DNA of 64,000 nt from Methylopila sp. 73B (GTDB lineage Bacteria; Pseudomonadota; Alphaproteobacteria; Rhizobiales; Methylopilaceae), in assembly GCF_000526315.1 (NCBI RefSeq), contig NZ_JAFV01000001.1:3846501-3910500 (forward strand). The letters are read 5' to 3'. Under the pieces are notes generated by a model that was not told the DNA's origin, did not search any database, and saw only the letters and a program-made list of their open reading frames with translations. Of this stretch, positions 8,327 to 40,488 are shown piece after piece. Numbering within the stretch: the stretch's first letter is position 1; every line of letters begins with the position of its first letter. Position numbers and translations under genes: made by a program.

Positions 8327-8568
8327 CGAAGGTCGCGCTCGATGCCCGCGATCACGGCCTCGGCCTGGCTGATCAAGAGCGGCACGTGAGCGGCGATCGG
8401 ATCGAACATCTTCGGCATCTCCTCGCGGCGGAGCAGGCCTTCGATGGACAGATCGTGGCGGTGAAGATCCTGGAGTAGCGCGTTCAGCGCGTCCAAGGTC
8501 TCGGAACTCAGGGTGGAGCGGTCGACGGTTTCGACAGCACGCAGGTGGTCACGAGCAGCGTCAGCCAT
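8323..8568 (-). CDS. Small protein, function unknown
   Basis: 81 residues from MADAARDHLRAVE, predicted largely helical, no membrane segment. Start at 8568 has GGAG 6 nt upstream; an in-frame ATG at 8580 is the alternative. Its end overlaps the integrase end by 4 bp in convergent orientation. It diverges from the 8680 gene across a region containing a perfect palindrome. I recognise no family. Confidence 0.55.
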   Translation of the reverse strand: MADAARDHLRAVETVDRSTLSSETLDALNALLQDLHRHDLSIEGLLRREEMPKMFDPIAAHVPLLISQAEAVIAGIERDLR

Positions 8569-8622
8569 GAAGGTCTCCATGGGACGCCTCGCCGCCCCGT
8601 TAACTGAAGCGTAAGCTACGTA

Positions 8623-8634
8623 ACATACGTATGT
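8623..8634. promoter_or_regulatory. Perfect 12-bp palindrome in divergent intergenic region
   Basis: ACATACGTATGT is fully self-complementary and lies between the divergent genes 8323-8568 and 8680-9075. It is a plausible operator, possibly for the ribbon-helix-helix-like product of the 8680 gene. Palindrome seen; the role is inferred. Confidence 0.4.
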
Positions 8635-8679
8635 CCAGCCGGTTGCGCATGCTGCGCTGGTCGGGTAGGAGTTTTCCCC

Positions 8680-9075
8680 ATGGCCGACGAACTCAAGTCC
8701 GAACGCATCCAGGTGCTTCTCAGCCCGTCAGAGCTGAAGGCGATCGATGATTGGGGTTTCTCGTGCCGCATCAGATCGCGAGGCGAGGCAATCCGTCAGT
8801 TGGTCGATATCGGCTTGCTGTCTCACAAAGATCATGAGGTGACAAAAGCCGCTCTACACCTAGCTGACGTACATTCAAAAATATTAGCTCCTTATCTTGA
8901 AGTTCCTGGCACATTTTCTAATGAAACATTGCAGGAGTTACTTGACGCGCTGGATCGTATGATTGGTCTTCAGGAAAAGCTCAACGAGGATGCGCCGGAG
9001 ATTGCTGGGAGAATCAAAGCGCGCATGGACGCGGCCTTGGCCGAAGCAAACGAAGACGGCGACGCCAAGCCTTAG
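8680..9075 (+). CDS. Putative ribbon-helix-helix-like DNA-binding protein
   Basis: 131 residues. The N-terminus (RIQVLLSPSELKAIDDW, then SRGEAIRQLVDIGLL) matches the beta strand plus two-helix pattern of ribbon-helix-helix regulators. The rest is a helical domain of unknown role. The A+T-richer codon use in the middle (about 8830-8960) differs from its neighbours and suggests a separate origin. RBS AGGAG precedes the ATG. Role could be autoregulation through the palindrome at 8623, which is inference. Confidence 0.6.
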   Translation: MADELKSERIQVLLSPSELKAIDDWGFSCRIRSRGEAIRQLVDIGLLSHKDHEVTKAALHLADVHSKILAPYLEVPGTFSNETLQELLDALDRMIGLQEKLNEDAPEIAGRIKARMDAALAEANEDGDAKP

Positions 9076-38187: not shown

Positions 38188-38223
38188 TAGTCCTTTACAA
38201 CCGTCCGCAATGAGGACTAGTAT
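38188..38223 (+). promoter_or_regulatory. Promoter and overlapping operator of the DUF4160/DUF2442 pair
   Basis: TTTACA (38194-38199) and TAGTAT (38218-38223) are spaced 18 bp and read rightward. An inverted repeat TAGTCCT (38188-38194) / AGGACTA (38213-38219) spans both boxes. This layout suggests autorepression by the HTH-bearing second gene. The region is also A+T-richer than its surroundings. Confidence 0.55.
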
Positions 38224-38245
38224 AAGGACATCAACGGGGGCGGAA

Positions 38246-38488
38246 ATGGCACGGCTTCATCAGGACGGCAACATCACGGTTCGGGTCTACGCGAACGACC
38301 ACCTGCCGCCTCACTTCCATGTCGTGACGCCGAACGCCGAAGCGCTGGTGCTGATCGACGGCCTCACCATCCTGCGCGGCGAGATCGACACCGCGACGCG
38401 CCGCAAGGTGTGGGGCTGGGTCGAGGCCAACGTCGCCGTCATCGCCGCCGAATGGAACCGTATCAACCCCCGCTTCCCCATCGCCTGA
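38246..38488 (+). CDS. DUF4160-family protein, first of a probable toxin-antitoxin-like pair
   Basis: 80 residues from MARLHQDGNITVRVYANDH. The pattern LPPHFHVV followed by AEALVLIDGLTILRGEI and RKVWGWVEAN is diagnostic of DUF4160. Members usually precede a DUF2442 gene, and the pair is suspected to be a toxin-antitoxin-type module, though the biochemistry is not established. It is on the plus strand inside a leftward phage region, with its own promoter. Confidence 0.85.
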   Translation: MARLHQDGNITVRVYANDHLPPHFHVVTPNAEALVLIDGLTILRGEIDTATRRKVWGWVEANVAVIAAEWNRINPRFPIA

Positions 38489-38498
38489 GGAGGGCGCC

Positions 38499-39092
38499 AT
38501 GACTGAACCGCTCCGCATCAAGTCCGTCTCCGCCACCGAGGGTTCGCCGCACCTGCTGGTGACGTGGGCCAACGACATGAACCCCAGTCTGGTCCGCCTC
38601 TCCGGCTGGATCGCCAGCGGCGGCGAAGTTCTCGCCCCCCTGATGGACCGAACCGTTTTCGAGAAGCCCCGCGTGGCGGAGCACGGCGCCGCGGTCGAAT
38701 GGGGCGACGATGGCGGCGATCTCGCGATCGATGCGATCCACCTCTACGGCATCGCATACGAACAACAGTCGTTTACGGGCCGCGACCTCGGCGCCTGGCA
38801 AGAGCGCCTCGGCCTATCTAACGTTGAGGCGGCGGAGGCGCTCGGCCTGAGCCGCTCGAAGTACATGGCGCTTCGGGCCGACCTCAACGAAGCGGTTCCG
38901 ACCACTATCGCCATCGCTTGCCGCGCCATGCTGAACGACCCGACCGTTCTGCAGGCTCATTATCGGCCGACGCCTCGCTCCCGCGGCCCTCGCCGCGCAT
39001 ACGTGGGTTCGGCGTTCGCCAGGGCCGCGACAGGGAAACCCGACCCGGCGGGCTCATACCTGGGAAGCGTCGCGAAAGGCGAGCGCGGCTGA
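38499..39092 (+). CDS. DUF2442 protein with C-terminal helix-turn-helix
   Basis: 197 residues. The N-terminal part (LRIKSVSATEGSPHLLVTWA, then VRLSGWIASGGEVLAPLMD) is DUF2442-like. The C-terminal part contains an XRE-like HTH (LGAWQERLGLSNVEAAEALGL then SRSKYMALRADL, about 97-130). The tail is basic. It follows DUF4160 by 10 bp. The HTH makes it the likely DNA-binding, autoregulating partner acting at the 38188-38223 inverted repeat. Confidence 0.78.
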   Translation: MTEPLRIKSVSATEGSPHLLVTWANDMNPSLVRLSGWIASGGEVLAPLMDRTVFEKPRVAEHGAAVEWGDDGGDLAIDAIHLYGIAYEQQSFTGRDLGAWQERLGLSNVEAAEALGLSRSKYMALRADLNEAVPTTIAIACRAMLNDPTVLQAHYRPTPRSRGPRRAYVGSAFARAATGKPDPAGSYLGSVAKGERG

Positions 39093-39172
39093 AGATGATC
39101 GACGCGGCCCCGATCGGCTTAACCGGGCATCCGAGGGGCAGGCTGCGAGGCCTCGCCTGCCGCGTCGATCTG

Positions 39173-39249
39173 TGGAAGCAGAGGTCGGACTTGAACCGAC
39201 GACCTTCAGGGTATGAACCTGACGAGCTACCGGGCTGCTCTACTCTGCT
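39173..39249 (-). tRNA. Initiator-type tRNA (CAU) with altered acceptor stem
   Basis: A full cloverleaf on the minus strand: acceptor AGCAGAG/CTCTGCT, D-arm GAGC-AGCCCGGTA-GCTC, anticodon arm TCAGG-TTCATAC-CCTGA, T-arm GTCGG-TTCAAGT-CCGAC, discriminator U and encoded CCA. The body closely matches alphaproteobacterial initiator tRNA, including the A11-U24 pair and the D-loop sequence. The acceptor stem differs: A1 pairs with U72 instead of a C1-A72 mismatch, and base 73 is U. It could also function as elongator Met or Ile(CAU). Confidence 0.88.
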
Positions 39250-39266
39250 GAAGAGGGGCGCGCCGT

Positions 39267-39292
39267 CATAAGCGAAGCGACGGGCGCTTATG
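39267..39292. other. Hairpin between terminator and initiator-type tRNA
   Basis: CATAAGCG (39267-39274) pairs perfectly with CGCTTATG (39285-39292), loop of 10 nt. No T-tract follows, so it may be a processing signal for the tRNA transcript rather than a terminator. Confidence 0.4.
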
Positions 39293-39306
39293 GCTCGGGA
39301 GCAATG

Positions 39307-39339
39307 AAAAAGCCGCTCGACCCTATCGGGGAGCGGCTT
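39307..39339 (-). terminator. Strong intrinsic terminator closing the permuted tRNA-like transcript
   Basis: On the minus strand AAGCCGCTC (39339-39331) pairs with GAGCGGCTT (39318-39310) around a 12-nt loop, with a T-run at 39311-39307. It ends the short RNA that starts near 39431, and separates it from the initiator-type tRNA and the late genes. Confidence 0.85.
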
Positions 39340-39431
39340 AAACAATTCCGGCGTATTACCACTATAACGACGGCCCCTCATTGGTGGAACCGGCGAGAAT
39401 CGAACTCGCGTCTCACGGATGTCTCTTAAAC
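39337..39431 (-). ncRNA. Circularly permuted tRNA-like RNA with alanine-type acceptor stem
   Basis: Order on the minus strand: leader GTTTAAG (39431-39425), T-arm GCGAG-TTCGATT-CTCGC (39409-39393), 3' acceptor CGGTTCC (39392-39386), discriminator A (39385), CCA (39384-39382), spacer ATGA (39381-39378), 5' acceptor GGGGCCG (39377-39371), D-arm-like segment with TAGTGG (near 39364-39359), then GTTTAAG again (39343-39337) running into the terminator. The strands pair fully, with G3-U70 and G4-U69 wobbles. G3-U70 plus A73 is the known alanyl-tRNA synthetase identity. The permuted order resembles two-piece tmRNA genes of alphaproteobacteria. Promoter and terminator frame it exactly. No CDS fits here. 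Confidence 0.7.
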
Positions 39432-39438
39432 TCGGCGA

Positions 39439-39467
39439 ATACTACTCGATCTCGCCGAGGATGTCAA
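39439..39467 (-). promoter_or_regulatory. Strong sigma70-type promoter TTGACA-N17-TAGTAT
   Basis: On the minus strand the -35 is TTGACA (39467-39462), spacer 17 (39461-39445), and the -10 is TAGTAT (39444-39439). The predicted start is near 39432-39431, at the leader of the permuted RNA. An inverted repeat CTCGGCGA (39431-39438) / TCGCCGAG (39452-39459) overlaps it and may be an operator. It is among the best promoter matches in the prophage. Confidence 0.75.
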
Positions 39468-39568
39468 GATCAGGACAATAGAAGGCCGTCGTGCGCAAAC
39501 CTGATCGCCGGGGCGGCGACGGTAAGGCTGGGCTCCCGGAATGCTACATCGGTCGTCCTGTTCACGTT

Positions 39569-40228
39569 TTAGGCTGCTTTGCGCAGCAGGTCAACGGAGA
39601 CGATCGGCATCGCGCTCAGCCATCCGAGGTCGACCTTGTAGCCGCCGTCGATCTTCTTCGAGCAGATCAGCCCGGTGAGCCCGCGGAGCAGCGGGTGCAG
39701 GATCTCCACGTGCTGGCCGTGGTCGTAGCGCGTCGGGTTCTTCCCGAAGTCCATCGCGCCAGCTTCCTGCGCCTCGCGCAGCGCCGCGATCTGCGCGCCC
39801 GTGATCAGGACGGGAATGCGCTCGACGCCGTTCCCCATGCCCAGCACGCCCATGACGCCGTCCACCTTCGGATCGGGCCGCTTGGCGTCGGGGAAGCCGA
39901 CGAACATGTATCGCGGGAAGGCGACGCGGACGCGCTCGATGTAGGCGACGCCCTTCATCGGCCGGCGCGGGCGGAACCAGCGCTTCCCTTCCGGCAGGTA
40001 GACGCAGAGCCCGAGGCTGATCAGCGCCAGCTCGACACGACGCTCGCAAAGGGGCGCGGTCTGCAGGACGAACCACGGCATGCCGTCCACCTCGCGGTCG
40101 CGGGACAGCTTTCGCGCGGCGGAGCGCCGCGCCTTGTCCGCCTCGAGCGCGGCGCGGCGCTGCTCCACCGTCAGGGACCGGCGCGAGCGGCGAATGGTGG
40201 CGGAGAAGAGGGGGGCGGCGTCGGTCAT
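39569..40228 (-). CDS. NusG-like (NGN-domain) transcription antitermination protein
   Basis: 219 residues. After a basic N-terminal extension (about 1-48), the NGN core starts at MPWFVLQTAPLCERRVELAL, with YIERVRVAFPRYMFVGF as the typical strand. KOW-like sequence HGQHVEILHPLLRGLTGLI is at about 170-190. RfaH- and NusG-type paralogues bind RNA polymerase and suppress termination. It sits about 100 bp upstream of the promoter-leader-terminator unit and before the late genes, which suggests late antitermination. Its start overlaps the preceding gene's end by 4 bp. Confidence 0.82.
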   Translation of the reverse strand: MTDAAPLFSATIRRSRRSLTVEQRRAALEADKARRSAARKLSRDREVDGMPWFVLQTAPLCERRVELALISLGLCVYLPEGKRWFRPRRPMKGVAYIERVRVAFPRYMFVGFPDAKRPDPKVDGVMGVLGMGNGVERIPVLITGAQIAALREAQEAGAMDFGKNPTRYDHGQHVEILHPLLRGLTGLICSKKIDGGYKVDLGWLSAMPIVSVDLLRKAA

Positions 40229-40488
40229 GCGGCGCCTCCGACGACCCGACCGTCGACAGTGACCTCGCCCCAGACCTCGTCGACGCGCCTGACGGAGACG
40301 CCGGTGTGGTTCGTGACGAGGCAGACGAAATCGCCGATCTCGGCGTCGATCCCGATCACCGCCGCCTTGATCAACTCCGCCTCAAGGCGCCCAGTCGTCG
40401 GATCAATCCATTTCTCGCAGATATCAACGTCGCCGCTGGCCTTGATGATCACGCTGCCGTCCTCCGGTCCATGAGCACGCCGTTCCAA
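40225..40488 (-). CDS. Small phage protein, function unknown
   Basis: 87 residues (VIIKASGDVDICEKWIDPTTG, then VCLVTNHTGVSVRRVDEVWG). Compact beta-rich sequence with no membrane segment. Coupled to the NusG-like gene by ATGA overlap, so it may be a partner in the same control step. In-frame start could be later than 40488. Family not recognised. Confidence 0.5.
   Translation of the reverse strand: MERRAHGPEDGSVIIKASGDVDICEKWIDPTTGRLEAELIKAAVIGIDAEIGDFVCLVTNHTGVSVRRVDEVWGEVTVDGRVVGGAA

Follow-up and report, generated by a model that had tools for sequence, protein, structure and literature searches.

The window, i.e., the 64,000-nucleotide stretch of Methylopila sp. 73B DNA analysed here, carries within a prophage, on its minus strand at 39305-39467, a putative small-RNA gene in which the two parts of a tRNA-like molecule are in swapped order. 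The permuted arrangement is real, small and well delimited, the element is probably a gene, and its product appears to be an orphan among permuted tRNA mimics, with neither Ro60 nor a tag, for which we infer a function. The order proposed in a sequence-only reading is confirmed. The T-arm, GCGAG-TTCGATT-CTCGC (39409-39393), is followed by the 3′ acceptor strand CGGTTCC (39392-39386), A73 (39385) and CCA (39384-39382), and then, after a linker of only 4 nt, ATGA (39381-39378), comes the 5′ acceptor strand GGGGCCG (39377-39371), all seven bases of which pair with 39392-39386. Two of those seven pairs are G-U, with G3-U70 among them, and as A73 and CCA are also present the alanine type of the acceptor claimed at that time is borne out. 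U8, C9 and the D-arm with its loop AGTGGTA occupy 39370-39353, the D-arm itself being GTTATAGTGGTAATAC at 39368-39353, where full pairing of the stem requires one bulged U. Three features can be added to the anatomy then described: a TCCG/CGGA stem, an AGACA/TGTTT helix, and GTTTAAG at both outer ends. The first GTTTAAG (39431-39425) is near the predicted transcription start and is succeeded by the 5′ strand of the outer helix, AGACA (39424-39420), and the anticodon-stem equivalent TCCG (39419-39416); their 3′ partners are CGGA (39350-39347) and, across a 2-nt bulge, TGTTT (39344-39340), with the second GTTTAAG (39343-39337) overlapping the start of the terminator. The RNA has a C27-U43 mismatch and, as the earlier reading also had it, no tag reading frame is seen in its sequence before the terminator.

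The swapped order of the halves is not due to chance. A T-arm with 5/5 pairs, CCA and a 7/7 acceptor occur together once in the real window and in none of 60 Markov-randomised windows, and from 100 shuffles of the window the search pattern is expected 0.00 times. The fetched loci contain 273 places where a T-arm with CCA has a D-arm close behind it, of which 227 precede an ordinary tRNA; with these ordinary neighbours 7/7 pairing is found in none of the 227, and 6/7 in 14, and among the remaining 46 places 21 pair 7/7, the window's own copy counted.

One real source of false matches is tandem copies of the same tRNA, whose outer halves are absent in the window. Could the RNA nevertheless be what is left of such a pair, a tRNA-like gene having been duplicated in tandem, both outer halves lost, and the remainder without function? 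Tandem copies of one tRNA do reproduce the 7/7 pattern (L346, L347, L362, L370 and L373), tandem duplication is the route taken by the published model for the origin of permuted genes, to go by the available part of PMC3978253, and the GTTTAAG copies at the two ends are consistent with a single repeated site at which the outer halves were lost, a 7-mer shared in this way between the two 20-mers being found in 0.95% of shuffles. The imperfect D-stem, the C27-U43 mismatch and the lack of any homologue found also favour a relic, and yet nothing is missing from the T-arm, acceptor or CCA, the RNA has a near-consensus promoter at one end and a terminator of 9 bp at the other, and outside it there is no tRNA remnant by eye, nor any called by Rfam or ARAGORN, so that this origin is unlikely. 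The permuted tRNA genes of algae and archaea are alike in that the 3′ half is encoded ahead of the 5′ half, with the difference that their transcripts are cut and religated into decoding tRNA (both points from the available part of PMC3978253), whereas joining the ends of the window RNA would give a loop of 15 nt and not an anticodon loop of seven bases. When the halves are joined ARAGORN makes no call in three settings, and a single weak Leu call once an intron is permitted and the threshold lowered. A prophage attachment site inside a tRNA was considered and rejected: the swapped halves are only 4 nt apart and no element lies between them.

Matches to the claimed promoter and terminator are both there on the minus strand. 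The promoter match, TTGACA (39467-39462), 17 nt and TAGTAT (39444-39439), is the sole sigma-70-like match in the 2.1 kb from 38200 to 40300, where 0.2 would be expected. A perfect dyad, CTCGGCGA-N13-TCGCCGAG (39431-39459), overlaps its -10 region and the predicted start, and is a possible operator; the idea that it is a repeated operator was discarded, the perfect copy occurring once in the window and weaker copies at chance frequency. The strong intrinsic terminator (39339-39305), downstream of the D-arm, has a stem with inner CCC/GGG, and five T; its arms (39339-39331/39318-39310) form 9 bp with 12 nt between them, and as the terminator scan permits loops of at most 8 it is missing from the list which that scan produced. 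Directly upstream of the promoter, and on the same strand, is a gene for a NusG-like antiterminator (39569-40228; PF02357, 30 bits; phrog_6386), and downstream of the RNA is an ordinary tRNA-Met(CAT) (39173-39249, minus strand; ARAGORN/Rfam). Two frames on the opposite strand at 38210-39092, one for a DUF4160 protein and the other of 197 aa, separate the RNA from the packaging genes.

That neighbourhood brings to mind a late-switch leader RNA, for which lambda Q/pR′/6S RNA and HK022 put RNA are the models: a promoter, a short structured RNA and a terminator before the packaging genes, opened by the NusG-like antiterminator. The minus-strand order, NusG-like antiterminator gene, promoter, RNA, strong terminator, HNH-like gene (by eye), TerL and portal genes, is as such a switch would have it. 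However, the two opposite-strand frames and a tRNA intervene, and a homologous nusG-like gene was found at two other loci, L070, which lacks both promoter and terminator, and L091, which has a terminator only; as the tRNA-likeness would also be left unexplained, a leader is improbable. Just past the nusG-like gene the three elements have, by eye, a similar GC-rich stretch, CAGGA...CGGA/GATG...CCGG...GCCCAG (about 39510-39563 in the window, 2175-2225 in L091 and 3620-3680 in L070), which may be the antitermination site of that gene.

Without the terminator the predicted fold does not stand out from shuffles in stability (z -0.76, with 43 of 200 equally good), with it z is -2.88, and the minimum-energy fold favours a competitor of the T-arm. 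In YrlA-type Y RNAs a long basal stem is the part to which Ro60 binds. The longest ungapped Watson-Crick run of the window RNA's outer pairing is 5, a length reached in 183 of 200 shuffles, but the test is a crude one, by which no more than 8 of 23 relatives exceed their own shuffles. At gathering thresholds ARAGORN and Rfam make no call at the RNA, and elsewhere in the window they call only tRNA-Ser and tRNA-Met.

Is the design new? The initial statement that no phage-borne RNA of this design came to mind is overtaken by YrlA-type Y RNAs, which are both bacterial and phage and have a permuted tRNA-like core, and the design is also in print as a phage two-piece tmRNA in the available part of PMC9004378. 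The permuted layout itself is not a new design, being known from Y RNAs and two-piece tmRNAs. A weak BLAST match, L007, led to RNAs flanked on one side by a gene whose product has a Ro60 vWA domain (PF25045, 73.2 bits) and on the other by an RtcB-like gene (by eye), and one of these RNAs is Rfam YrlA (92.5 bits), which is permuted in that the T-arm comes first, then a loop-closed acceptor hairpin, then the D-arm. Phage Y RNAs were reportedly described by Chen et al. (2014) in a study of tRNA mimicry by Y RNAs.

Scans of viral contigs and genomes yielded, besides the window, at least 19 distinct permuted RNAs that have CCA and pair in all seven acceptor positions, and at least four without CCA. 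These 23, of which 22 come from viral contigs and one from a Rufibacter genome, make up alignment A1. Covariation in the relatives is 0.713 compared to 0.198 when shuffled, the acceptor and T helices having been partly selected for in finding them; the anticodon-equivalent helix was unselected, and it has 83 of 120 possible pairs, the window's row counted in the 120, where shuffles average 43.5. In a scan that did not specify CCA all 12 matches were permuted with 7/7 acceptors, with NCCA in four and none in eight, and from the latter it follows that a closed loop is usual; G3-U70 is not a feature of the class as it occurs in 3 of the 23. The upstream motifs CAGCA (8/23) and GTTACTTC (5/23), both absent from the window, were dismissed as conserved elements, no 6-mer being clearly above shuffles. 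In a permissive scan two phage RNAs located beside Ro60-like genes have Rfam YrlA as their best match, at 40.9 and 40.1 bits versus 11 and 12 for permuted tmRNA, which is short of the YrlA gathering score, and that score is reached by none of the six loci scanned (L112, L117, L158, L214, L220 and L321).

Closer relatives of the window RNA were sought without success: none over most of its length was found in phages or plasmids, nor in 61 genomes including its own. The Ala-type pattern has one match in genome contigs, the permuted RNA near a Ro60-like gene in Rufibacter, and the window's type of D-arm is found in its own prophage only among viral contigs, and in its own genome only among 385 genomes of the class, all three patterns demanding a pyrimidine at position 37 so that any relatives with a purine there would be missed. 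At the same place in phages with a related TerL (79 loci besides its own prophage, from the best 80 of 109) a strict scan finds none. Relaxed-scan matches in L040, L058, L063, L075, L076, L078 and L086 have T-loops or D-arms that are not those of a tRNA and were judged to be chance; covariance matches in L075, L053 and L043 are ordinary tandem tRNAs (ARAGORN), that in L076 has the same score as L075, that in L045 consists by eye of tRNA fragments and tRNA-Met, and that in L087 has 20.5 bits. L017 has only tRNA-Met in common with the window. That these searches gave no homologue, and with it no sign of conservation, counts against the window RNA being a mimic. In titles and abstract openings of the open-licence literature no Ro60-free permuted tRNA-like phage RNA was found.

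What partners do the relatives have? In a set of 23 loci besides the window, 19 with CCA and four with 6/7 pairing, at least seven have a related gene within about 1.6 kb, a lower bound given the unequal lengths of the stretches examined. The query from L007, a Ro60, has matches in L220 and L321, and that from L117, a DUF2828/DUF7788 protein, has them in L117, L120, L160, L182 and L214; the four RNAs without CCA have no partner gene in the stretch examined. In phages KP13-26 and PhiImVa-1 permuted RNAs with 6/7 acceptors adjoin DUF2828/DUF7788 proteins. These score 18.0 and 15.4 bits with vWA_Ro60, below the cut-off of 27.7, the one from KP13-26 being in PHROG 850, 'RNA-binding protein', and the Ro60-like proteins of L220 and L218 are similar at E 4e-5; on these weak grounds of sequence similarity the DUF2828/DUF7788 proteins may be Ro60-like. 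In the host's order a Ro60 gene lies within about 1.5 kb in 17 of the 30 best permuted-model loci. None of 18 genomes of the family has a TROVE match above cut-off, and the window's own genome has no TROVE match at all, nor one to vWA_Ro60; the sister species G009 has a sub-threshold TROVE match of 19.2 bits beside three YrlA matches of 33.6-40.2 bits. None of the window's frames of at least 60 aa matches the Ro60-like queries at E 0.1.

The window RNA and YrlA-type Y RNAs (RF02553) have in common the order T-arm, loop-closed acceptor hairpin, D-arm, and occurrence in phages, and the size of the former falls within the 90-150 nt range given for the latter in the available part of PMC8394870. 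It differs in that no Ro60 gene was found in the window or the host, and in its low score with Rfam YrlA, 13.4 bits where the gathering score is 69; nor is it among the 10 YrlA matches listed for its own genome. It retains CCA and G3-U70, as do some of the relatives. A covariance model of the 23 relatives, built without the window, gives the window RNA 45.5 bits and three permuted phage tmRNAs 20.8-22.5 bits, which argues that its core is of the tRNA/Y-RNA kind. As proof of membership the covariance score was rejected: an ordinary Thr-Asn tandem pair reaches 50.7 bits, and the score is so unspecific that 393 of 397 genomes of the order match at E 0.01 or better.

Rfam ranks the RNA in the reverse order to that custom model, with permuted tmRNA at 27.5 bits ahead of YrlA at 13.4. 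A covariance comparison had been suggested with the proposal of a minimal tmRNA-like factor, and its outcome is divided, as the 27.5 bits extend over the T-arm and acceptor only and the gathering score of 47 is missed. What is shared with permuted two-piece tmRNA (RF04321) is the succession of acceptor piece, CCA, linker and 5′ acceptor strand, together with alanine identity, and for one phage tmRNA the T-arm and 3′ acceptor are near-identical: the 3′ part of the window RNA is 96.8% identical over 31 nt to a site in phage Tunturi_5 (the best E-value among the 20 of 143 matches listed), and that site proves to belong to a permuted tmRNA (86.4 bits), of which it encodes the acceptor piece. Tunturi_5, Axy11 and JWDelta have permuted tmRNA genes (L383, L384 and L385, near 2000; 86.4-97.6 bits) that are unannotated in the stretches fetched. 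Unlike permuted tmRNA the window RNA has a stemmed tRNA D-arm with the loop AGTGGTA, no tag frame, and a 4-nt linker, 19 positions fewer than in the Rfam permuted-tmRNA model. A tmRNA D-loop comes without a D-stem, and the stem of the window's D-arm therefore makes its RNA tRNA/Y-RNA-like rather than tmRNA-like. With the Tunturi_5 match on one side and the tRNA D-arm on the other, the RNA brings together an alanine acceptor of the tmRNA type and the D-arm of a tRNA. The host's own permuted tmRNA (137.7 bits) was rejected as the source of the window RNA, its acceptor and T-arm being different.

The relationship with tmRNA opens an alternative in which the RNA, cut before G1 and after CCA, becomes a two-piece alanine-accepting molecule with paired halves and a charged 3′ end, a tag-less tmRNA-like factor. 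G3-U70, A73, CCA, the 7-bp acceptor and the T-arm are all exact, and since these identity elements are present a processed, alanine-charged form is possible; the loop ACCAATGA would need two cuts for it. As the host has a permuted tmRNA, enzymes that cut such a layout should exist, and together with the identity to the Tunturi_5 acceptor piece and the Rfam score this favours the alternative, as does loss of the mRNA-like region already in a mitochondrial permuted-type tmRNA, a case cited in the available part of PMC10085705. Set against these are the stemmed D-arm in place of a tmRNA D-loop, the absence of a tag frame, the short linker, and the relatives themselves, eight of 12 similar RNAs retaining a loop without CCA and only 3 of 23 having G3-U70, so that a two-piece factor is on the unlikely side. 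Unlikely too is the fuller version according to which a phage RNA that is neither tRNA, tmRNA nor Ro60-bound Y RNA is trimmed on both sides of ATGA, leaving two pieces that remain paired, and receives alanine from the host synthetase; it would then be a minimal effector of the aminoacyl-RNA kind, or would act as a decoy against defences that target tRNA.

The best explanation, quite possible and tentatively held, is instead a one-piece, Ro60-independent tRNA mimic that works like the tRNA-like module of YrlA-type RNAs. It draws on the occurrence of the same core in 23 other RNAs, on their partner genes and on the 45.5-bit model score; the Rfam order of tmRNA over YrlA, the lack of specificity of the covariance score and the fold stability count against it. 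A dedicated prophage small-RNA gene would give a transcript of about 125 nt, comprising a permuted tRNA-like module with its acceptor stem closed by the 8-nt loop, a short outer helix that would replace the anticodon arm, and the terminator hairpin at its end. The RNA would stay in one piece and act in trans by occupying a tRNA-handling enzyme, the candidates being a host-defence nuclease that cleaves tRNA, PNPase or a modifying enzyme; it is perhaps a decoy for such enzymes. Precedents are at hand, each from the available part of the source named: the tRNA-modifying enzymes DusA and TruB act on YrlA, whose tRNA-like domain binds PNPase and serves as a tether for it (PMC8394870); the tRNA-like domain of Salmonella YrlA has been suggested to inhibit an anticodon nuclease by competition (PMC7790460); and phage TROVE proteins are known, whose cellular kin act with a tRNA-like partner (PMC7824862). 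If expressed, the window RNA would mean that a Y-RNA-type tRNA mimic is usable by a phage without Ro60, and that the mimic's own function is separable from that of its protein partner.

There is a wider aspect, a broad phage set of permuted tRNA-like RNAs that, at the loci tested, are missed by ARAGORN and by Rfam at gathering thresholds, and that are omitted from records or labelled suppressor tRNA. Permuted RNAs are in many phage contigs (L111, L112, L117, L120, L152, L160, L182, L191, L214, L234, L309, L338, L340, L341, L343 and others), some within tRNA arrays and some beside DUF2828/DUF7788 Ro60-like genes, and that of PhiImVa-1 is overlapped in GenBank by 'tRNA-TERM'. In Vibrio phage KVP40 (L376, 2504-2580) two annotated pseudo-tRNAs overlap a permuted-model match of 50.7 bits, where acceptor pairing of at least 6/7 was not found. 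The permuted RNA at 1140-1290 of L158 has in its 3′ part a complete Thr(UGU)-type anticodon arm (by eye), broken near position 26, and an outer run of 18 pairs, longer than in any shuffle; it is a candidate phage tRNA gene of genuinely permuted layout. Ruegeria phage RpAliso (L380, 2364-2588) has two tandem permuted RNAs, the first with a window-like D-arm, TCGTCCAGTGGTAGGAC, and these adjoin a 718-aa protein that has no Pfam match and is weakly similar (E 2.7e-5) to a 731-aa neighbour in L112, the two proteins being perhaps an undescribed partner family. Finally, the contig L117, in which a permuted RNA and a Ro60-like gene are both found, also encodes a GOLLD RNA (8382-8832, 171.8 bits).
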